From positions 744,001 through 808,000 of the forward strand of contig NZ_CP048263.1 in assembly GCF_019469165.1 (NCBI RefSeq): a stretch of DNA of 64,000 nt, written 5' to 3'. Below the pieces are notes generated by a model. It saw only the letters and a list, made by a program, of their open reading frames with translations, searched no databases and was not told the DNA's origin. Each line of letters begins with the position of its first letter. Positions within the stretch are counted from its first letter, which is position 1. Origin of the DNA: Gilliamella sp. ESL0443 (GTDB taxonomy: Bacteria; Pseudomonadota; Gammaproteobacteria; Enterobacterales; Orbaceae). Of this stretch, positions 1-53,891 are shown piece by piece. The position numbers and the translations under genes were made by a program.

Positions 1-1411
1 TTTAAGATCGCCTAGTCGATCGTTGTGGCGATCGTCATTTGGATCATCTCGTCGATCATCTCTCGGATCTAAATTACTCCGACAGATCTTTTTACCGCCC
101 GTTCTTTTGCTAATACCTTTTTATTCTAGCCATGCATTAACGGCTAAAACCTCGAATATGATTCGCGGTAATGCGCCTTATTTAACTTTCGATGGTGGTA
201 AGACACGTGTTCTTAATATTGAAGCTTTGCTCGGTATTACGCTATCTAACGGAAAACAGTACACGACTACAACGAATACTTCATCATCTTCAAACCCCAT
301 TGAGTTACCGGTTGCAGGTCAAAGTTTTGCTGATATAGATATGATCGTTCCAACGAATGTCGATTTAATCAATTTAAAAACGCTTATTGGTCCTCCCAAT
401 AATTATTGGGGGGATGATGATGGTGATGATGAGATTAAGGTTAATGGTTTTTTAGAGTTATCTCTCGTTGATTATAGAAATAGAACAGTATCACGTAATA
501 CAGTGTTAAGGCCTTGTAACGCGCCTTATGAGGTTATATTAACTAATACAAATGGTACATTAACAACGCGTTATGGTATTCCAAATAGTAGTGATTTCAA
601 TCCTAGTCGGGTCACTTATTTTGTCAAACCTAAGGGGCAGGAAATTTGTTTTGCCACTCCAAGTCTATCTTTCGAAGGCAATGGAGGTGTAAAAGCGGGT
701 CCACCTGAAATTTTTGATCCATCTCTTGGTTTTTTGCCTCAGTCAACTGACTCATATGGTAAGAACTTTCCGACTACAGGTGCTAACAACATGTACTTTG
801 ATTTAAGCATTGCTGGTAATAAACAAGCATTGTCTTGGTCTCCTGTCTCGCGAGGTGGTATCACGGCGACTATGACCAATTCTACAGCGACAGGCGTACG
901 GGTTACCTTAACTGGCCCTGTTGCAACTGAATCCCAATGGAATTCCAGCAATCCTGGTCCTATTACTAAGCCTACTTTGCCTCAGACATTCGAGTTAGTT
1001 GGTCGAGATAGTAGTGGTAAAGCTATCGTTAAATATGGTTTTACGTTAAAACAATGGTTTGTCAACCGAGGTAAAACTTATTACAGCTATCCTAGCATGG
1101 AATCCTGGTGTAATAGTATTGGTTATCGCCTGCCTAAAGTTAAGGATTTAACTAATGCAAAACGTTATGAAATTATTGGTGGTACACCTTCATCATCAGG
1201 TGATTATTATATGCGTACAATTGGTGCAGGCTTGCTTGCGGAGTGGGGTAATATAGGCAAATATGATCGAACCAACTTTGACGCCGTCCAATGGTACTGG
1301 ACCAGTGATGTAAAAGGTTTGAGCCGGTTCGTCGTTTTTCCTAAAGATGGTCATGTACATTGGGCTGAACCCTCGTATGATAAATCGGTAGGGCTTTGCA
1401 CTTTGCCTTAG
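1..1411 (+). CDS. Secreted lectin-like family protein, member 1 (5' end outside window)
   Basis: The frame is open from the first bases, so the start codon lies upstream of the window. The visible part begins with a Ser/Arg-rich stretch (RSSFGSSRRSSLGSK), then a hydrophobic signal segment ending near SSHA^LTAKTSN, then a mature region of about 420 residues. Family landmarks are an acidic loop (YWGDDDGDDE), a block with NFPTTGANNMYFDL, a beta-rich block with VRVTLTGP, and a Cys/Trp-containing tail (WCNSIGYRLPKVKDLTNA ... WTSD ... GLCTLP). The tail resembles C-type-lectin-like adhesin and DUF1566/Lcl-type tails by motif only. Surface adhesion or glycan binding is inference. It has five paralogues in the window, all on the + strand. 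A strong terminator follows. Confidence 0.75.
   Translation, partial: LRSPSRSLWRSSFGSSRRSSLGSKLLRQIFLPPVLLLIPFYSSHALTAKTSNMIRGNAPYLTFDGGKTRVLNIEALLGITLSNGKQYTTTTNTSSSSNPIELPVAGQSFADIDMIVPTNVDLINLKTLIGPPNNYWGDDDGDDEIKVNGFLELSLVDYRNRTVSRNTVLRPCNAPYEVILTNTNGTLTTRYGIPNSSDFNPSRVTYFVKPKGQEICFATPSLSFEGNGGVKAGPPEIFDPSLGFLPQSTDSYGKNFPTTGANNMYFDLSIAGNKQALSWSPVSRGGITATMTNSTATGVRVTLTGPVATESQWNSSNPGPITKPTLPQTFELVGRDSSGKAIVKYGFTLKQWFVNRGKTYYSYPSMESWCNSIGYRLPKVKDLTNAKRYEIIGGTPSSSGDYYMRTIGAGLLAEWGNIGKYDRTNFDAVQWYWTSDVKGLSRFVVFPKDGHVHWAEPSYDKSVGLCTLP
6..72 (+). repeat. 12-bp-period GATC tandem repeat in member 1 presequence
   Basis: GATC begins at 6, 18, 30, 42, 54 and 66, exactly every 12 bp, with one more at 85. 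Each unit encodes four residues (RSxx or GSxx), giving a charged Ser/Arg stretch ahead of the signal helix. Loss or gain of a unit would keep the reading frame. Confidence 0.85.
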
Positions 1412-1660: not shown

Positions 1661-1774
1661 TTAGATCTTTTTCTGATCATATTTACAAAAGTTAACGATC
1701 TAGAGTGAAATAATTATTGCGTCATATTCTTCCAATCACTATACTTCTAGATCACTTTAGCTGAATAGCTAAAG
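1661..1774 (+). promoter_or_regulatory. Conserved promoter and leader hairpin of lectin-like member 2
   Basis: A box TTAGATC-N7-GATC lies at 1661-1678. The promoter is TTGCGT (1717-1722), 17 bp, TATACT (1740-1745). A leader hairpin follows at 1755-1774, with stem CTTTAGCT/AGCTAAAG and loop GAAT. The same layout precedes members 3, 4 and 6. The predicted transcript start near 1752 gives a leader of about 84 nt to the ATG at 1836. AGGA lies 9 nt before that ATG and could serve as the ribosome binding site. Confidence 0.7.
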
Positions 1775-1835
1775 TTTAATCAATAAACAAAAAATAGTAA
1801 ATAAATCATAAAATTACTTGACAGGATAGTCGAAT

Positions 1836-3364
1836 ATGTTCTATAATTTTCAACAGGCAACAGGCAACAGGCAACTTGGCCAACCTATAATTTAAATTCG
1901 CCAAATTTAAACTCTCAGCCTCTTTTTTTACACTTCAGTTTATTAATTGACAAAAATTTAAGATCACGCAGTCGATCGTCGTTCCGATCGTCATTTGGAT
2001 CATTTTGTCGATCTAAATTATTTCGAGAGATCTTTTTACCGCTAGGCCTTTTACTCATACCTTTTTATTCCAGCTATGCATTAACTTCACAGACAACAAG
2101 AAATCATATTCAGGGTAGTGCGCCTTATTTTGTTTATAAAAATGTCGGCGCTAGCATACTTGCGGTTGATACTGATGGTTTACTCAGTATTGCTTTTAAC
2201 AATGGTGTGCAATACACGCCTTCAACTAATACTTCATCTCCTGAAAATCCAATCGTCTTGCCTATTGCTAACCAACCTGTTAGTGGCATTCACATGTTTA
2301 TTCCAGTTGACAAAGATTCAGTGGAATTCAGTATGCTTGGTTGGAAGGATGATGATGGCGATACAGACGTTACAGCTACAGGTACTTTAAGTTTATCTGT
2401 CACCGATAAATACAACCGAGCTGTACCACGTGATCGAACATTAGGGCCTTGTGGTGCCCCTTATCGTCTTAAATTAACCAGTACGAATGGTTCTCTATCC
2501 ACACGTTATGGGGTTCCACGTAGTCGTAGTTTCAATGCAAGTAGTGTGACTTATTATGTTACTCCTAACCCTAAGACTGAACCAGAGGTTTGTTTTGCCA
2601 AACCCGTTTCGGTTGCAGATGAACCTAATAACGATGGTCCATCTTCTATTTGGAACCGTTATAAGGGTTTTTTCACTCAGGATACTAGGCCTGATTATTA
2701 TGGTAAAAACTTTCCGACTACGGGTGCTAATAACATGTACTTTGATTTAGAAATTGCTGGTAATAGTCAGCTATTGGCTTGGTCTTCTGTCACTCGGGGA
2801 GGTATTACTGCTACTGTGGGCAATTTTACACCGACAAGCGTACGGGTTACCTTAACCGGTCCAGTTGCGAAGGCATCCCAATGGAATTCTAACAATCCTG
2901 GTCTTATTGCTAAGCCTACTTTGCCGCAGACTTTCGAGTTAATAGGTCATTATGTCCATAATGGTAAGAAAGCTGTCAAGTATGGATTTGAGATAAAACA
3001 ATGGTTTGTCTACCGAGGTAAAGGTTTTTATACCTATTCTAATATGGAGTCTTGGTGTAATAAAATTGGTTATCGTATGCCTACGGTTAAAGATTTAACT
3101 AATGCAAAACGTTATGAAGTGACTGGTGCTACACCTTCCTCATCAGGTGATTATTATCAGCGTAGAATTGGTGCTAGCTTTATTGCGGAGTGGGGTAATC
3201 TAAGCAAATATGAAAAAGCCGACTTTGGTGTTACCAGGTTCTGGACCAATGTTATAGGTCCTGGCAGCAATAATCGGTATGTTGTTTACCCTGAGGATGG
3301 TCATATACATTGGTTTTATACTGGCTATGAAAGCATTTTGGAAGGGATTTGTACTTTACCTTAG
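1836..3364 (+). CDS. Secreted lectin-like family protein, member 2, apparently phase-OFF
   Basis: The ATG at 1836 follows the family leader, but its frame ends at a TAA after 19 codons. The main frame is open from about 1847 to 3364 and has no ATG, GTG or TTG until the GTG-ATG around 2204-2207, inside the mature domain. Between the two lies a (CAACAGG)3 CAAC tract. Adding one heptamer (n=4) or reducing to n=1 would join the ATG to the main frame. The predicted ON product has a long Ser/Arg-rich presequence, a signal peptide ending at SSYA^LTSQT, and the family mature regions ending in GICTLP. I read this as a switched-off gene rather than a decayed one, because the rest of the frame is intact. 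A fixed frameshift cannot be excluded from one sequence. Confidence 0.7.
1851..1875 (+). repeat. Heptanucleotide tract (CAACAGG)3 in member 2
   Basis: Three perfect CAACAGG units plus CAAC start five codons after the ATG. Seven is not a multiple of three, so each unit gained or lost shifts the frame. The present number puts the ATG out of frame with the gene. Confidence 0.9.
1962..2013 (+). repeat. 12-bp-period GATC tandem repeat in member 2 presequence
   Basis: GATC begins at 1962, 1974, 1986, 1998 and 2010, each 12 bp apart, with another at 2029. The 12-bp unit encodes RS/GS tetrapeptides, as in member 1. Confidence 0.85.
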
Positions 3365-3531: not shown

Positions 3532-5649
3532 TTAGAATTTCATACTGGCGCTAATGATAGCGTGGAATTTAGCTGCTGGTATTGATTCGTAAGCTGTGGT
3601 GTAGTTTCTGTTTAAGATATTGTTGAGGTCTAACCCAATATGGTACTGGCGATTAGCGCCAAATGAGGTTGTGGTTGATAAGTTTAATGTTGACCATCCG
3701 CTGTAGTGATAAACAGATGAATCACCGCGTTTTGTTGCGTTGGTGGCAAATCGCATAAATAGGTCTGAATCAATATCAAATTTATCAAAATAAGCTGTAT
3801 GTTTTATCCCTGCACTCCCTGTAAAGCGTGGGTTGCCGGTGTCACGAGTGCTGTAGGTATCTGTCTCGATTTTACGGCTTAGGTAATTCCCTTTTAGATA
3901 AGGATTCACCGGAAGGTCTAGGTATTCAACACTTAATTCTAAGCCATGGGTTTTGGCTTTGTTGGCATTGCCATAATAAGTAATAGAACGTCCGGATGCG
4001 CCACTACAAATCGATGAGCCATTACAGTTCATTTGAGTGATATAGTCTTTTGCATCCGAGAAGTAGATCGCCCCATCAACTAATAATTTGTTATTGTTAT
4101 AACGTAAACCAATTTCGTAGTTGTTGGATTTTTCAGCTTTTAGATGCGAGTTTCCATAAATCGTTTGCGAAGCAGCCGAGGTGACGGCATAAAGATGTGC
4201 AAGGGTTGGGTAAACATAACCTTGTGCAAACGAGGCTCTTAGTTGGGTGTTTTTAAAACCTGAGTAGGTTAATCCTGACGATACAACAAAGTTGTTATCA
4301 TGAGTTTTCTTTTTTCGATCGATACTGTGGCTGGTTGTTGCCGATCCCATAACCGGGATTTTATTTATGGTGGTATTGCCGTTTTTTAGTTTTGATTCGA
4401 CCCAATATTTACGAGCACCAAGATTCCAAGAGATATCATCGGTTATTGCCCAATCATTTTGCCCAAATAGTGCGATACTCGATTGTTGCCATTTGTTAGT
4501 TAGGTATTTATGTTGGGTATAACTAGCTGGTGGTGCAGGCATTTTTGATATCACGACATTATGTGAGTCTTGGTCAACATTATCTTGTTGATACTGTACA
4601 CCAGCAATTAATGTCATATCTTTATGTGGTTGCATGTCTGATTGGAATGTCATGCCATAGGTTTTTTGTTCGTCATTGGTGGCCGTGTTGGTCGTTACTT
4701 TCATTATCGGTCTAGGTGATACTACGACATGGTTTCTAAATTGACGATTTAGTTTTTGGGCGTAAGCATCATAATGCAGTTTTTTTAAGAAACCTGCTTC
4801 AACGTCATAATCATAAAAGAATCCCACTTTTTCACGTTTTAGTAGTGGAATGTTTACCCAAAACTCTTTTATTTCTGGTGAGTTATCATCGGTGTAGGTT
4901 TTGGTATTCAGTTTATAACGATCTAATGATATACCAAATTTGTGTTTATCCAGATTGAGTCCTAACCATGAGCTTATGCTGTTATTATCAAAGTCGGTAT
5001 CATGCAGTTTGCCTTGATACGCTTTGCGATCATTGTTTTCAGAGTAGGTTCCACTAATTCGGTAATCAAATATTTCATCAATCGTGCCGTTTACCGTGCC
5101 CATTTCGGTAAAGCCATTGGTTGATTGGTTATAGATTAATTTGGCATCTCCAGTTAGTGGTTTTCCATCTTTACTTCCTTTACGGGTTATAAAGTTAACC
5201 ACGCCACCAATCGCTTGCGAGCCATATAATACTGAGTGAGGCCCTTTAATCACTTCGATGCGTTCAACTGATTCCATGTCGATTAATACACCAGCACTTG
5301 AACCGTGTCCGGAACGATGATAAGTCACTTCTTGACCATCAATTAACATTAATATACGCGAAGGCGCTTCACCACGAATCATGATTTGTTTGCGTCCTGC
5401 TAGTGCGTTATCGGTAATTTCAACGCCTGGAATATCACGCAGTGCTTCAACCACAGAATCGCCATTGAGTTTTTCAATCTCGTCACGGTTGACTGCATTA
5501 ACAGATACTGAGCTATCCCATACTGTCTTTTCATTCCGATCAGCGGTAACGATAATGGTATCTTGTGGATTGCCTTTTTTTTCTTCTGCATAACTATCTG
5601 CACAAAAACAGATGGTTAATATTGCAACATAATGTAATTTTGGGGTCAT
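3532..5649 (-). CDS. TonB-dependent outer-membrane receptor
   Basis: A 705-residue protein with a signal peptide (MTPKLHYVAILTICFCADSYA), a TonB box (DTIIVTA), a plug domain (IPGVEITD ... RILMLIDGQ ... ERIEVIKGPHSVLYGSQA) and a 22-strand-type barrel ending in a C-terminal Phe. The plug type is that of heme, hemoglobin or catecholate siderophore/colicin I receptors, and the exact ligand cannot be told. I chose the ATG at 5649, preceded by AGAGAAG, over a TTG at 5700, because the former starts directly at a normal signal peptide. A Fur box lies about 50 bp upstream, so iron-repressed expression is likely. The gene is monocistronic here and divergent from alr. Confidence 0.85.
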   Translation of the reverse strand: MTPKLHYVAILTICFCADSYAEEKKGNPQDTIIVTADRNEKTVWDSSVSVNAVNRDEIEKLNGDSVVEALRDIPGVEITDNALAGRKQIMIRGEAPSRILMLIDGQEVTYHRSGHGSSAGVLIDMESVERIEVIKGPHSVLYGSQAIGGVVNFITRKGSKDGKPLTGDAKLIYNQSTNGFTEMGTVNGTIDEIFDYRISGTYSENNDRKAYQGKLHDTDFDNNSISSWLGLNLDKHKFGISLDRYKLNTKTYTDDNSPEIKEFWVNIPLLKREKVGFFYDYDVEAGFLKKLHYDAYAQKLNRQFRNHVVVSPRPIMKVTTNTATNDEQKTYGMTFQSDMQPHKDMTLIAGVQYQQDNVDQDSHNVVISKMPAPPASYTQHKYLTNKWQQSSIALFGQNDWAITDDISWNLGARKYWVESKLKNGNTTINKIPVMGSATTSHSIDRKKKTHDNNFVVSSGLTYSGFKNTQLRASFAQGYVYPTLAHLYAVTSAASQTIYGNSHLKAEKSNNYEIGLRYNNNKLLVDGAIYFSDAKDYITQMNCNGSSICSGASGRSITYYGNANKAKTHGLELSVEYLDLPVNPYLKGNYLSRKIETDTYSTRDTGNPRFTGSAGIKHTAYFDKFDIDSDLFMRFATNATKRGDSSVYHYSGWSTLNLSTTTSFGANRQYHIGLDLNNILNRNYTTAYESIPAAKFHAIISASMKF

Positions 5650-5696
5650 AAAACTTCTCTTTGTCTCTTTTGTATAACGTTGTATTGATATAAAAC

Positions 5697-5715
5697 GCAA
5701 ATGATAATCATTATT
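5697..5715 (-). promoter_or_regulatory. Fur box of the TonB receptor gene
   Basis: Matches the 19-bp Fur consensus GATAATGATAATCATTATC at 16 of 19 positions, with a perfect core ATGATAATCATTAT. It is placed just upstream of the receptor start. Confidence 0.8.
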
Positions 5716-30387: not shown

Positions 30388-31920
30388 ATGCATTATAATT
30401 TTCAATTGGCAACTTGGCCAACCTATAATTTAAATACGCTTAATTTAAACTCTCAAACTCCTTTTTTTCACTTCAGTTTATTAATCGACGAAAATTTAAG
30501 ATCGCGTAGTCGATCGTTGCGTCTACCGTTACTTCGATCGTCATTTGAATCATCATTCCGATCATCTCTAGGATCTAAATTATTCCGACTGATCGTTTTA
30601 CCGCTAAGCTTTTTGTTAATACCTTTCTATTCCAGCTATGCATTAACCTCTAAAACCTTAAATCAGATTCACGGTAATGCACCGTATTTAACGTTTGATG
30701 GTGGTTATACACGAGTTACAAGCACTGACGGTCTGCTTGGTATTACGTTATCTGACGGTACACAATATACGCCTTCAACCAATCCTTCATCTTCTTCAAG
30801 ACCTATCGCCTTGCCGGTTGTGGGGCAGAGTTTTGCTGATATAGGTATGTTGGTTCCTACTGATACTAATTCAGTCACTTTAAGTTCTCTTATCGGTCCA
30901 CCTTATAATTATTGGGGGGATGATGATGGTGATTCTGGCGTTACAGCTACAGGTTCTTTGAGTTTATCTATCGTCGATAAAAACGGGCAATCAGTATCAC
31001 GTAATGCAGTACCAAAAATTTGTAATGCACCTTATCAAGTAAAATTAACCAATACAGATGGTATATTAAGCACACGTTATGGTCTTCCAAGTCATAGTAA
31101 CTTTAGTGCAAGTAATGTGACCTATTATATCAATCCTAAACCATCGCCAACGGTTTGTTTTGCAAGGCCTAACCTATTGTATGGTAAGAACAAGGAGAAT
31201 AATTGGCCGCTAGATTTTAGCGGTCCTGCCTCGATTTGGGACCCTGCTAATGGTTTTCTTCCTCAATCATCTTACGGTTTAAATTTTCCGACTACTGGTG
31301 CTCATGGTTTATACTTTGATTTAGTCATTTCGAGTAGTAATCAGGCATTGTCTTGGGCTCCTGTTTCTAAGGGGGGGATAACCGCTACTATGAGCAATTC
31401 CACAAGTACAGGTGTTCGAGTCACATTAACAGGTCCTGTCGCCACTGAGTCCCAACACGATTCTGGCTTTCCAGGTCCAATACCTAAGCCACCTTTACCT
31501 CTGACCTTTGAATTAGTCGGTCGCGATAGTCAAGGTAATGCAATTGTTAAATATGGTTTTACGCTAAAGCAGTGGTTCGTTAACCGTGGTACTAGCTATG
31601 AGGACTTTTATCCTGATCTTGTCTTTTGGTGTAACAATTTAGGTTATCGCGTATCACGTGTAAGTGATTTAACTAATTCAAATCATCGTATGGGCGCAAT
31701 CCCTTCGTCATCTGGCAATCATTATCAGCGTCGCATTGGTTCAGGTTTTTTCACGGAGTGGGGCAAAATGGACGATTACTCAGGAGCTGACTTCATAAGC
31801 GCTTACTATTGGACTAGTGATCAGGATGGTAATCGCAATTTTATTGTGTACGCACTCAACGGTTATGTGAATTCGTACCAAAATGACGCAAATAACGGCG
31901 GACTTTGTACTTATCCTTAG
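30388..31920 (+). CDS. Secreted lectin-like family protein, member 3, in frame (ON)
   Basis: 510 residues. The ATG at 30388 is the family start and is in frame with the whole gene. The position of the heptamer tract reads CAATTGGCAAC, equal in length to one unit. A presequence of about 85 residues contains LNSQTPFFHFSLL, an RS-rich 12-bp repeat region and a signal helix ending SSYA^LTSKT. The mature protein has HGNAPYLTFDGG, YWGDDDGDSG, VCFARPNL, NFPTTGAHGLYFDL, VRVTLTGP and the C-terminal WCNNLGYRVSRVSDLTN...WTSD...GLCTYP. A C-type-lectin-like adhesin role is inference. A TTG at 30370 in the same frame is less likely as start. Confidence 0.8.
   Translation: MHYNFQLATWPTYNLNTLNLNSQTPFFHFSLLIDENLRSRSRSLRLPLLRSSFESSFRSSLGSKLFRLIVLPLSFLLIPFYSSYALTSKTLNQIHGNAPYLTFDGGYTRVTSTDGLLGITLSDGTQYTPSTNPSSSSRPIALPVVGQSFADIGMLVPTDTNSVTLSSLIGPPYNYWGDDDGDSGVTATGSLSLSIVDKNGQSVSRNAVPKICNAPYQVKLTNTDGILSTRYGLPSHSNFSASNVTYYINPKPSPTVCFARPNLLYGKNKENNWPLDFSGPASIWDPANGFLPQSSYGLNFPTTGAHGLYFDLVISSSNQALSWAPVSKGGITATMSNSTSTGVRVTLTGPVATESQHDSGFPGPIPKPPLPLTFELVGRDSQGNAIVKYGFTLKQWFVNRGTSYEDFYPDLVFWCNNLGYRVSRVSDLTNSNHRMGAIPSSSGNHYQRRIGSGFFTEWGKMDDYSGADFISAYYWTSDQDGNRNFIVYALNGYVNSYQNDANNGGLCTYP
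30500..30575 (+). repeat. 12-bp-period GATC repeat in member 3 presequence, partly degenerate
   Basis: GATC starts at 30500, 30512, 30536, 30560 and 30572, then at 30591. The 12-bp register is kept, while the units at 30524 and 30548 have lost the GATC (GAATC at the latter). Confidence 0.75.
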
Positions 31921-48281: not shown

Positions 48282-49784
48282 ATGCATTACAATTTGCACC
48301 ATTGTTCGACTTTAAATTCATCAAAGTTAAGCTCTCAACTTTCATTTTTCCGAGAACTTCATTTTTTCATCTGTTCAAGCAAAATTCTACGAATTTTGGC
48401 GCGATCTTTTCATCGATCCAAATTATTTCGGCTGATCTTTGTCGTACTATTACTTCCTTCTTTTAGCCATGCATTAACCGTTAATACCTCGAATTCTATT
48501 CACGGAAATGAGCCATATTTAACTTACGATGGCGGTCGTACTCGTGCGGTTAATAATGACGGTTTGCTCGGGATTACACTATCTGACGGCACGAAATATA
48601 CGCCTTCAACCAATCCTTCACCTACAACCCCAATCGTCTTGCCAGCTACAGGTCAAAGCTTTGCTGATATAAGTATGTTCGTCCCAACTAATACTAATTC
48701 AGTCGATTTAAATTCTCTTATTGGTCCTCCTAATAATTATTGGGGAGATGATGATGGAGATGGTGATGTTTCTGCGACGGGTAGTTTAAGTTTATCTATC
48801 GTGGATAACAGTAATCAAGCTGTATCACGTAATACCGTGCTCGATATTTGTAAAGCACCTTATCAAGTAAAATTAACTAGTACTAATGGCGAATTAACTA
48901 CGCGTTACGGTCTTCCTCCTAATAGTACTTTCAATGAAAGTAGTGTCACTTATACTGTTAATCCTAAGGCTGTTCCGGTGGTTTGTTTTGCTAGACCAAA
49001 CTTAAAAAATGGTAAGTATGGCGATTTTGGTATTTCTCACGACTTCGCTGGTCCGTCTTGGATGTGGGATCCTGCTAATGGCTTTATTCCTCAATCAACT
49101 GACTCATCACGTTATAGTTCAAACTTTCCTACTACTGCTGCCAACAAAATGTACTTTGATTTAATCATTGGTGGTGTTAATCAGGCTTTGTCTTGGTCTC
49201 CTGTTAAGCTTGAAGGTATCACTGCGACTATGAGCAATTCTACAGCTACAAGTGTACGCGTTACCTTCACTGGTCCTATCCCAACCGAGACAGGCATGAG
49301 TCCTACTCCTAAACCTATTGGCCAACCTAATTTACCTCAGACTTTTGAGTTAGTTGGCCGTGATAGCAATGGTAACCCTGTCGTTAAATATGGATTTGTA
49401 TTAAAGCAATGGTTCGTCAACAGTGGGCCCGCGGCAAATTCTTATTCTCGTGCAACACTTTGGTGTAATGGTCTGGGTTATCAAGTGGCTGAGATAAAGG
49501 ATTTAACCAATGCATCTTGTCGTGGTAAGGAGTCAGGTAATTGGTGTAGAGGGTTAGTCGGTGCTACTCCTTCCTCACCTAATAATTTTTATCAACGTTA
49601 TATTGGTGGAGGTTTTGTTTCTGAATGGGGGATGATGAGCGGTTACCCCGACGTCAAATTTTACGGCGATACGTACTGGACAAGAACCCCAAACAATGAT
49701 GGTAAGACTTATGTCTTGGATATGAGGCATGGTTCAGCGCTTAGGGACAGTTACAGCTCGAATGCGGTTTGTGTTAATCGTTAG
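48282..49784 (+). CDS. Secreted lectin-like family protein, member 4
   Basis: 500 residues, in frame from the family ATG (MHYNLHHCS), with AGGA 8 nt upstream. There is no heptamer tract. The presequence of about 60 residues (SQLSFFRELHFF ... ILRILARSFHRSKLFRLIF) ends at a signal helix and SHA^LTVNTSNSIHGNEPYLT. The mature part has YWGDDDGDGDVSATGSLSLS, VCFARPNL, MYFDL, VRVTFTGP, and a tail with an extra Cys pair (NASCRGKESGNWCRG) and a C-terminal NAVCVNR. It probably shares a transcript with member 5, which lacks its own family promoter. Confidence 0.78.
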   Translation: MHYNLHHCSTLNSSKLSSQLSFFRELHFFICSSKILRILARSFHRSKLFRLIFVVLLLPSFSHALTVNTSNSIHGNEPYLTYDGGRTRAVNNDGLLGITLSDGTKYTPSTNPSPTTPIVLPATGQSFADISMFVPTNTNSVDLNSLIGPPNNYWGDDDGDGDVSATGSLSLSIVDNSNQAVSRNTVLDICKAPYQVKLTSTNGELTTRYGLPPNSTFNESSVTYTVNPKAVPVVCFARPNLKNGKYGDFGISHDFAGPSWMWDPANGFIPQSTDSSRYSSNFPTTAANKMYFDLIIGGVNQALSWSPVKLEGITATMSNSTATSVRVTFTGPIPTETGMSPTPKPIGQPNLPQTFELVGRDSNGNPVVKYGFVLKQWFVNSGPAANSYSRATLWCNGLGYQVAEIKDLTNASCRGKESGNWCRGLVGATPSSPNNFYQRYIGGGFVSEWGMMSGYPDVKFYGDTYWTRTPNNDGKTYVLDMRHGSALRDSYSSNAVCVNR

Positions 49785-49983: not shown

Positions 49984-51444
49984 ATGTTTATTTTTTACAA
50001 AAGTATAATTTTAAATATTCTCCATAGTGGATCGCGAATTTTGGTGCGATCCTTATTTCCAACCTTTCATTTATTATTTAGGCAAATTTTTTTAACTATT
50101 TTGCTTTCTATTTCTTTTTACAGTTATGCATTAACAGTTAAAACTTCAAATATTATCCATGGTAATGCTCCATATTTAACGTTTGATGGTGGTCATACAC
50201 GAGCTATAAATACTGATAGTTTACTAGGAATAACTTTATCTGATGGAACTCAATATACGCCATCAACCAAACCTTCATCCATTACACCGATTGAGTTGCC
50301 AGCTGTAGATCAAAGTTTTGCTGATATTGGAATGTTTGTTCCAACTGATAGTGATTCAGTCGAACTCAGTACGCTTATTGGTTCTCCTTATAATTATGGA
50401 GAGGATGATGATGGTGATGGTGATTTCTCTGTTACTGGTAGTTTGAGTTTATCTATTTGGGATAAAAACTATAAGTATGTATCGCGTAATGCAATGGTAG
50501 ATATTTGTAAGGCGCCTTATTACCTTCGTTTATCTACGACAGGTGGTAAATTAGCTACACAATATGGTATTCCAAACAGTATTAAATTTGGTGCCGGTGA
50601 TGTCATTTATATGATAAATCCTAAGAACGCTGTGCCGAAGCTTTGTTATGCTAGGCCTAATTTATCACCCGGTGATATGGATGAGAACTATTCTCATGAC
50701 TTCCGTGGTCCAGCTACGATGTGGAGTCCTTCTGATGGCTTTCTTCCTCAATCATCTTATGATTTAAATTTTCCTACAGCTGGTGCTCATGGATTGTACT
50801 TTGATTTAGATATTGGTGGTGGTGGTGAAGATTTATCATGGGAACAAGTCTCTCAAGGTGGCATCACTGCGACTATGACAAAGTCACCGGTTACATCAGG
50901 TGTTCGTGTTAAATTAACAGGTCCTTTTGCAACCGAGTCCCAATGGAATTTAGACAATCCAGAGCGTATTGCAACACCTGTTTTACCACAAACATTCGAG
51001 TTAGTTGGTCGTGATAGTAATGGTAACGCTGTTGTTAAGTATGGGTTTGTGTTAAAGCAATGGTTTGTCAATCGTGGTACTAATAGTTACACTTATCCTT
51101 CGACACTATCTTGGTGTAACAGTTTAGGTTATCGTGTGCCTAAGGTAAAAGATTTAACTAATGCATCTTGTCAGGGAAGCAATTCGCGCACAGAGTGTGA
51201 TGGTTCAGTTGGTGCGACTCCTTTTTCACCTGATAACTTCCACCAACGTCACATTGGTGCTGGCTTTTTTTCCGAATGGAGCGACTTGTCTCGCTACTCT
51301 GGAGCCAATTTTGACTACGGTGAGGTTTGGACTAGTGACGCTAATGGTAGCAATCGATTTACCGTGAACTCAATATTAGGTTCTGTGTATGGATCTGAGT
51401 ATTCTGGCGACCCCAACAATGGGGGAATCTGTGTTTGGCCTTAG
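49984..51444 (+). CDS. Secreted lectin-like family protein, member 5
   Basis: 486 residues. The shorter presequence MFIFYKSIILNIL ... SRILVRSLFPTFHLLFRQIF is followed by a signal helix ending YSYA^LTVKTSNIIHG. It has the family landmarks NAPYLTFDGG, EDDDGDGDFSVTGSLSLS, LCYARPNL, NFPTAGAHGLYFDL and a tail WCNSLGYRVPKVKDLTNASC ... GICVWP. No heptamer tract and no TTGCrT-N17-TATAmT promoter is seen in the 199-bp gap before it. A conserved 3' hairpin follows. Ligand and location are inferred only. Confidence 0.78.
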   Translation: MFIFYKSIILNILHSGSRILVRSLFPTFHLLFRQIFLTILLSISFYSYALTVKTSNIIHGNAPYLTFDGGHTRAINTDSLLGITLSDGTQYTPSTKPSSITPIELPAVDQSFADIGMFVPTDSDSVELSTLIGSPYNYGEDDDGDGDFSVTGSLSLSIWDKNYKYVSRNAMVDICKAPYYLRLSTTGGKLATQYGIPNSIKFGAGDVIYMINPKNAVPKLCYARPNLSPGDMDENYSHDFRGPATMWSPSDGFLPQSSYDLNFPTAGAHGLYFDLDIGGGGEDLSWEQVSQGGITATMTKSPVTSGVRVKLTGPFATESQWNLDNPERIATPVLPQTFELVGRDSNGNAVVKYGFVLKQWFVNRGTNSYTYPSTLSWCNSLGYRVPKVKDLTNASCQGSNSRTECDGSVGATPFSPDNFHQRHIGAGFFSEWSDLSRYSGANFDYGEVWTSDANGSNRFTVNSILGSVYGSEYSGDPNNGGICVWP

Positions 51445-52245: not shown

Positions 52246-53891
52246 ATGCATTATAATTTTCAACAGGCAACAGGCAACAGGCAACCTGGCCAACCTATCT
52301 TTTAAATTCGCCTAAGTCCAGTTCCCAGCGTTTATTTTATATACAAGCACATTTTTCCACGAGAACAAGTAGAATTCTTCGAATTTTGGTGAGTTCCTAC
52401 TGTCGTTCTAATTTATTTCGGCAAATTTTTTTGAGTGTACTTTTTTTGCTTACTTTTTCTAGCTATGCATTAACATCTAAAACTTCAAATGTAATTTATG
52501 GTAGTGCTCCATATTTGACCTTAGATCATGGTCAAACCAAAGTTATGACTTCTGAAGCTTTATTAGGGATTACATTAGAAAATGGTCAACAATATATAGC
52601 GCCGGGGAGTACAGCAAATTTATATCCTAATGCTATTGTTGATTATTCCAGTCAGTCTAACCCGATTACGTTACCAAATGGATCAAATCAGTTTAGTAGT
52701 GTTAAAACACTTGTTCCAATTACAGGAAATAATAATTATCCAAAAATTAATCTTAGTAATTTAATTGGTTCCCCTTATAACTATTGGCAGGATGATGACG
52801 GAGATAGTGATATTAGTGCTACAGGCTCTTTGACTGTTAAATGGCAAGATGTGGTAGGTAATGATATTACTTCAGTTGTAAAACACAACCCTTCACAAAA
52901 ACTTTCAGCATGTGATGCTCCTTATAAATTAACTGTTACAGCAACTAATGGGCAACTATCTACTCAATATGGCCATCCGAAAAGTAGTACTTTTCGTAAT
53001 GGTTACCATGTGTATTATTTAAATCCAACAATTGATCGACCTAATGTTTGTTATGCTCAACCTAATTTAAATGGCACCGGTGGTGATGAATTATCTTCGC
53101 AATGGAATGCGATGAAAGGCTTTAAGGTACAGAATATTAATTCACCAGAAGTAAACTTTCCTACAACAGGCTTTAATGGTGCTGTTTTTTACCTTTTATT
53201 AGGTGGAATTAGTCCTGAACAGGTTATATCAGCCAATGGATCTACCATTTATCCAACAAATGGTAGATCAAATGTTTCATTAGCACTTTCATCAACAGTG
53301 ACACCAAGATGGGGTTCTTATTCTTCAATACATAAAGGCGGTGATATTGCATTAAGAGTTGAATTGCGAGGACCTACTATAAATTCTTCAAATCCTCAAT
53401 TTAATCCTTCAGTATTTAAAATTTATTCCGATAGTTCAAGACGTAATATTTTGTATACTTTTAAAATTCAACGTTGGTTTATTGTAAAACCGTATGGATT
53501 TGGAGGTCGTTATCGTGCAGAAGATTACTGTGCGGGATTTAGTGGTTATAGATTACCAAGTTTAAGGGATTATAATAACGCTAACGGTCAAGGTTGGACA
53601 GGAGGGATTCTTGGGCGCACTGATAGATCTGGGCGACGAGAAATTAGCTATAAAAATTATAATAATGAATGGGTAGGGGGATTATCAAATGAATGGGGAT
53701 ATCTTATTAAAGATGTAGATAGATCACCACAATATCCAAATGCTGAATGGGAGTTTGAACGTTATTGGGTTAAAGAAATTAAATATTCTAATCGGCCCTA
53801 TATAGCAGTTAATTCACCTTTTGAGGCTGGAGCTGTTTATTATAATGATTGGGATGATCGGTCCCCTCGCGTTAGCTGCGTATCTCCATAA
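52246..53891 (+). CDS. Secreted lectin-like family protein, member 6, apparently phase-OFF
   Basis: The family ATG at 52246 is followed by (CAACAGG)3 CAAC and its frame stops at a TAA after 19 codons. The main frame is open from about 52257 to 53891 and continues the family presequence (WPTYLLNSPKSSSQ ... SRILRILVSSYCRSNLFRQIF). The first usable codons in that frame are a TTG at 52386 and a GTG at 52389, just before the signal helix, so low-level expression of a short-leader form is possible. The mature part is the most divergent of the six: HGQTKVMTSEALLGITLENG, YWQDDDGDSDISATGSLT, an insert of about 40 residues around EQVISANGSTIYPTNG, and the tail YCAGFSGYRLPSLRDYNNAN ... RVSCVSP. One extra heptamer would switch it ON. 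Confidence 0.7.
52261..52285 (+). repeat. Heptanucleotide tract (CAACAGG)3 in member 6
   Basis: The same tract and copy number as in member 2, at the same distance from the ATG, and out of frame in the same sense. Confidence 0.9.

Follow-up and report, generated by a model that had tools for sequence, protein, structure and literature searches.

The second of a series of lectin-like genes in Gilliamella sp. ESL0443 raises the question of why an intact reading frame should be preceded by an ATG in a different frame, with a short heptamer array between them, and whether the array acts as a switch. We addressed this in a 64-kb stretch of DNA (the window, positions 744001-808000 of the single 2.40-Mb contig; coordinates below are those of the window), and among the members of the same gene family in this genome and its relatives. 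The gene, member 2 (L031), and its upstream region have the following features.

1682..1696, plus strand: conserved upstream box TTTACAAAAGTTAAC / TTTACRAAAGTTAAC, a candidate regulator site (per-genome consensus of array genes)
1717..1745, plus strand: predicted promoter P1, TTGCGT-17-TATACT (motif counts in array genes)
1755..1774, plus strand: perfect 8-bp stem-loop CTTTAGCT-GAAT-AGCTAAAG in the 5' leader (sequence reading)
1818..1847, plus strand: promoter-like TTGACA-18-TATAAT element across the RBS-like bases and start codon (motif counts)
1823..1826, plus strand: Shine-Dalgarno-like AGGA, 9 nt before the ATG (sequence reading)
1836..1895, plus strand: ATG and 19-codon frame closing in TAA at three units (n=3; frame read from the sequence)
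1847..3364, plus strand: main reading frame of the adhesin, intact and out of frame with the ATG
1851..1875, plus strand: heptamer array (CAACAGG)3CAAC (direct reading and TRF)
2063..3361, plus strand: mature part, with model residues 172-433 forming the Ig-like and C-type-lectin-like fold of invasin/intimin tips (structure model)

The first-pass annotation had described an ATG at 1836, a (CAACAGG)3CAAC tract and a TAA after 19 codons, and all are exact on direct reading: the ATG occupies 1836-1838, the TAA in its frame 1893-1895, and the 19-codon peptide is MFYNFQQATGNRQLGQPII. TRF reports the array with period 7, 3.6 copies and a 100% match. The main frame is open from 1847, is closed by the stop codon at 3362-3364 and, as had also been claimed, holds no ATG, GTG or TTG ahead of the mature domain, the earliest one listed being a GTG at 2207. 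When the window was dinucleotide-shuffled 100 times, two adjacent CAACAGG units occurred at a mean of 0.00, and a two-unit search of the window itself, allowing at most one mismatch, gave four matches, all perfect: two in the member 2 array and two at 52261-52285. Member 2 adjoins a minus-strand gene (3532-5700), which from its motifs we take to be TonB-dependent-receptor-like.

The protein had been called lectin-like, and the structure model agrees, in that residues 172-433 match the C-terminal tips of invasin and intimin (PDB 1cwv, 1f00). The family differs from these proteins in having no visible beta-barrel and in its length of ∼430 aa after the signal peptide; Pfam found no barrel family in five members, and no barrel-length set of strands is present in the 433-residue model. 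Scans against Pfam, NCBIfam and PHROG, of five, three and two proteins, respectively, gave no match, and the weak matches from a profile search of solved sequences (8pjs and 7qof) were judged to be unrelated. Five plasmid records aligned by tblastn with 22-28% of the query length at 28-30% identity; their annotations are inverse autotransporter or Ig-like proteins. The adhesin would presumably lie at the cell surface and bind some target.

A protein search of the genome gave 34 matches, of which 30 were examined, omitting four weak or short ones. The two-unit CAACAGG pattern has 31 exact matches on the two strands of the whole genome, and the reversed control pattern has none. There are 17 CAACAGG arrays (14 with three units and three with two), and L038 and L043 carry arrays of the unit CAACAGC; overall, 19 of the 30 examined members have a heptamer array, 16 of three units (two of them CAACAGC) and three of two. 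All of these are out of frame except for L034, which has three units plus an extra C and is in frame (18/19 out). The remaining 11 have no perfect array, and all have an in-frame ATG. For nine of the 11 this is the homologous ATG, which was sought without regard to frame and is in frame in 9/9; these include L049 and L053, in each of which one degenerate unit is present. The starts of L052 and L057 are less similar, and L052 may carry an imperfect array. Further family members within the window include the following.

2..1411, plus strand: member 1 (L034), its start beyond the window edge; three units and an additional C; the ORF and its ATG share one frame
30388..31917, plus strand: L049; single degenerate unit CAATTGGCAAC; in frame
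48282..49784, plus strand: L056; array-less, with the homologous ATG as start; in frame
49984..51444, plus strand: L057; array-less, with another leader and its own in-frame ATG
52246..53891, plus strand: L059; ATG at 52246, (CAACAGG)3CAAC at 52261-52285; out of frame

L059, which carries the second array of the window, has the same layout as member 2. As a separate observation, an Arg-Ser-rich stretch before the signal peptide (1950-2040 in the window, and the same stretch in other members of this genome) contains a cluster of GATC sites, at 17.5 per kb (shuffles 3.5, gene bodies 1.2), with 85 of the 99 sites in the phase CGA TCN. This excess is weaker in relatives G013, G020, G025 and G032, and is absent from the larger sets G009, G014, G015 and G017.

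The family is present in 30/35 genomes of the genus (with one query) and in 38/44 of the taxonomic family (with another), with up to 60 matches per genome among relatives, pieces included. We read the leaders of 205 members in 13 genomes, the 30 described above and 175 more from 12 genomes, with the fullest reading in G009 (39 of 42 matches), G013 (22/26), G014 (31/48), G015 (26/33) and G017 (32/60). With the search condition of an ATG 12-18 nt upstream of the array, we found that an ATG is followed, at a distance of 14-17 nt, by a perfect array in 146 of the 205 members, from 11 of the 13 genomes; in these genes a repeat with a unit of 7, which is not a multiple of three, thus lies between the putative start codon and the ORF. 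Two units are present in seven arrays, three in 132 and four in seven. As a relation of frames, the rule proposed for member 2, that the gene is ON only when n = 1 mod 3, holds in the relatives: arrays with n=4 are in frame with the ATG in 7/7, those with n=2 are out of frame in 7/7, and those with n=3 in 131/132, the one exception having an extra base beside the array. Unit number thus sets the frame, with 138/139 arrays of two or three units out and all of those with four units in. Only 8/146 arrays are in frame, versus one third under random phase (binomial 4e-16, with rows that are not independent). Per genome, the in-frame copies number 1/19 in G000, 1/36 in G009, 1/15 in G013, 0/29 in G014, 2/9 in G015 and 1/25 in G017, and in the smaller sets 1/4 in G028, 1/1 in G032, 0/6 in G034, 0/1 in G004 and 0/1 in G008. 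The first-pass annotation treated the switch as a property of one gene; the frame rule supports its reading of a switch, yet the arrangement is found across the genus.

A looser scan found arrays at other loci, outside these 146, in G006, G016, G018, G021 and G023. These include a four-unit copy of G021 that is in frame, a 28-nt out-of-frame array (L162) that we read as three units with matching flanks, and a two-unit in-frame array beside masked bases (L138). A three-unit array in G006 (L158) has a stop codon inside the unit, and counts against the phase-switch reading. In a divergent branch of six members in G015 (among them L251, L254, L257 and L259), a (GCCA)19-29 tract lies eight codons after the ATG, and one of the six is in frame, a pattern in keeping with the switch. 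The exact leader pattern is confined to ESL0443 among the 35 genomes of the genus because the relatives carry other units; its 16 matches in named genomes (a scan from which ESL0443 itself may be missing) are in unrelated taxa and were taken as chance.

The units fall into 18 classes by rotation among the 146 arrays, and differ both between and within genomes. None of the 18 classes contains a stop codon in any frame; the chance of this is ∼0.001 for random uniform heptamers but ∼0.12 once their A/C-rich composition is matched (stop chance 0.11), so the absence of stops says little. No array (0/146) has a one-mismatch unit next to it, a count that starts from perfect arrays and would miss one with a changed middle unit. 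In G014, L212 and L262 have different units, with the same change in each of the three, in sequence that is 100% identical upstream and 96% downstream. Such concerted change, together with the uniformity of the arrays, points to a unit turnover faster than point mutation.

Unit number was compared among near-identical paralogs, and some differ by one unit. In G013, near-identical copies (L200) have n=2 and n=3 with 99% identity in both the flanks and the first 600 nt of the body. In G015, L192 and L197 have n=4 and n=3 (flanks 97-98%, body 90%), as do L260 and L258 (flanks 96-98%, body 97%). The partners of the other odd-numbered copies are less similar, down to 0.6-0.7 downstream. Slippage is the presumed cause of these differences, and they would be expected to be reversible.

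The 59 array-less members bear on whether the ATG is a start codon at all. We searched these for a leader-type ATG without regard to frame, using either a strict motif or the motif plus RBS-like bases. The strict form was found in 22/59 and is in frame in 22/22, with 37 lacking it; the looser form was found in 29/59 and is in frame in 28/29 (the exception being L278), with 30 lacking it. By homology with these members, the ATG of the array genes is, as far as sequence can tell, a start codon, and its use in translation is likewise presumed. RBS-like bases of at least 3 nt are present in 146/146 array copies, and of at least 4 nt in 92. With the last 15 codons ahead of the mature start set aside, 88 of the 138 out-of-frame (OFF) genes have no main-frame ATG, GTG or TTG, and 50 have one somewhere. 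Of the 25 arrays in G017, 11 have their first unit overlapped by an ATG that, at n=3, lies in the main frame; these copies may therefore not be OFF.

The OFF genes are intact and constrained, as expected of phase variation. In 138/138, no stop interrupts the main frame between the array and the start of the mature part. Between array and signal peptide, in 120 OFF genes of five genomes, there are no main-frame stops in 5,377 codons, versus 33-176 stops per genome in each of the shifted frames. Conservation of the pre-signal amino acids was not borne out: this stretch is under little amino-acid constraint, with pN/pS at 0.69-0.92 in the main frame versus 0.57-1.16 in the shifted frames. Over its first 300 nt, the mature part has a pN/pS of 0.29-0.48; there is a single stop in G013, among 1,400 codons. 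In ESL0443, 18/18 OFF ORFs are intact beyond the array, and over 900 nt pN/pS is 0.49 in OFF copies versus 0.51 in those in frame.

Together, the frame rule, the one-unit differences, the open and constrained OFF genes and the homologous in-frame ATG support a phase switch, and we consider it likely that the heptamer array is a translational phase-variation switch that is usually OFF. An mRNA, probably from P1, would begin upstream of the ATG, and a ribosome initiating at 1836 would read on through the array. With three or two units it would be in the wrong frame and reach a stop after ∼15-26 codons (19 in member 2), yielding no adhesin; with four units or one, the same ATG would lead through a long N-terminal extension into the signal peptide and mature adhesin. 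Slipped-strand mispairing at replication would add or remove one unit and flip the state. Each array-bearing copy would be a separate switch with three units as the common OFF state, and zero to two array copies per genome are caught in frame.

Transcripts that include the ATG are plausible from the motifs upstream. TTGCRT-N15-19-TATAMT is found upstream of the ATG in 58/146 array genes (shuffles 0.0), although it is confined to G000, G013, G014, G015 and G034, with none in 6 of the 11 genomes; TATAMT at -150 to -40 of the ATG is present in 142/146 (shuffles 39.1), mostly near -97. We note that the box at 1682-1696, upstream of this promoter, is conserved in several genomes and is perhaps a shared regulator site.

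The distribution of unit numbers argues against part of this scheme. Two units, although OFF, are as rare as four, which is against slippage that is indifferent among OFF lengths, and 25-nt arrays are short for fast slippage. The switch model of the first-pass annotation is partly opposed by this excess of n=3, and it leaves over the promoter-like element across the ATG. The TTGAC of this TTGAC-17/18-TATAAT-like element is present in 146/146 array genes versus 9 of the 39 array-less genes tested, both hexamers match at 5/6 or better in 131/146 and 8/39, and the third codon reads TAT or TAC in 145/146 versus 20/39; the 39 were picked by their in-frame ATG, leaving out the 20 without one, and include three doubtful picks (L255, L256 and L258). 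An improbable alternative that would use these patterns is that n is no switch and the array a fixed part of the leader that goes with this promoter, which would be real and start its transcript inside the array; transcription or the function of the leader would then require three units (the number in 132/146). Such a transcript would be without the ATG, however, and 88/138 OFF genes have no other start up to 15 codons before the mature part; it is also left unexplained why n=4 copies occur in frame, why the frame is open across the array in every OFF gene and why array-less copies have their ATG in frame. Reading the ATG as a mere promoter spacer is kept as a rival and not as the main reading. 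A reading of the TTGACA region as an RNA hairpin was weighed by eye and set aside. A speculative idea, to which we give similarly little credence, is that array and promoter-like element are one device, in which initiation or pausing would open the array DNA and drive or limit one-unit changes; most copies would be held at three units with about one array copy per genome in frame, giving a near one-at-a-time display of adhesins without a central controller.

Out-of-frame copies could instead be a silent archive feeding expressed copies by gene conversion, for which the many intact OFF copies and a possible mosaic (by eye, the N-terminal stretch of L053 is common with L033 and then divergent) could be cited; an archive has no need of RBS-like bases kept in 146/146, an ATG or a frame open through the array, and we regard it as very unlikely, though compatible with the switch as an addition. 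That the OFF copies are decaying pseudogenes, as 18 out-of-frame copies among 30 might suggest, is scarcely credible with all 18 intact beyond the array and constrained like the in-frame copies. Expression of n=3 copies by recoding (a frameshift or near-cognate start) would account for intact frames with no canonical start in 88/138 up to 15 codons before the mature part, but is just as hard to credit, as the shift required at n=3 is not the one required at n=2 and, by eye only, the unit sequences share no slippery site.

If the translational switch is real, a genus of probably commensal gut bacteria has a large repertoire of individually switched adhesins, in which one unit gained or lost toggles a single gene among dozens of related surface-protein genes. 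It would be a minimal heptamer switch, of three units, whose unit sequence drifts as its length stays fixed, and strain-level surface variation would be readable from DNA. How so short a repeat stays three-unit and homogeneous is the question that this would open. None of the open-licence titles listed for this group, taken as Gilliamella, concerns this heptamer arrangement.

Opa proteins are beta-barrels, and the present family, with a heptamer in place of the CTCTT pentamer and an invasin-tip fold in the model, falls outside the Opa family. The arrangement of the repeats is nonetheless similar: Neisseria opa genes carry (CTCTT)n in the leader-peptide region, with unit number setting the reading frame (PMC3960869), and both are multigene adhesin families with frame-setting repeats in the 5' coding or leader region. 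Whereas opa has a pentamer of one sequence, the arrays here are heptamers of 18 unit classes, usually with three units, before an invasin-tip-like protein. In Haemophilus hmw1A, (ATCTTTC)n is flanked by two promoters ahead of the gene and adjusts the amount made, with 11-24 units reported (PMC8262952). There, as is proposed here, a heptamer controls an adhesin, and it does so beside a promoter; the present arrays differ in lying inside the reading frame and having two to four units, with the promoter-like element abutting an array downstream of the ATG. Because the hmw1A heptamer is beside a promoter and promoter strength is said to affect opa phase variation (PMC3960869), transcription and slippage could conceivably be linked. 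The TAACTGA direct repeats of Beggiatoaceae occur in two to six copies, mostly upstream of start codons and at many gene types (PMC4679880); they resemble the present arrays as heptamers near the start codons of many genes, and differ in having one unit sequence, whereas the Gilliamella arrays vary in unit, lie downstream of the ATG and belong to one gene family.
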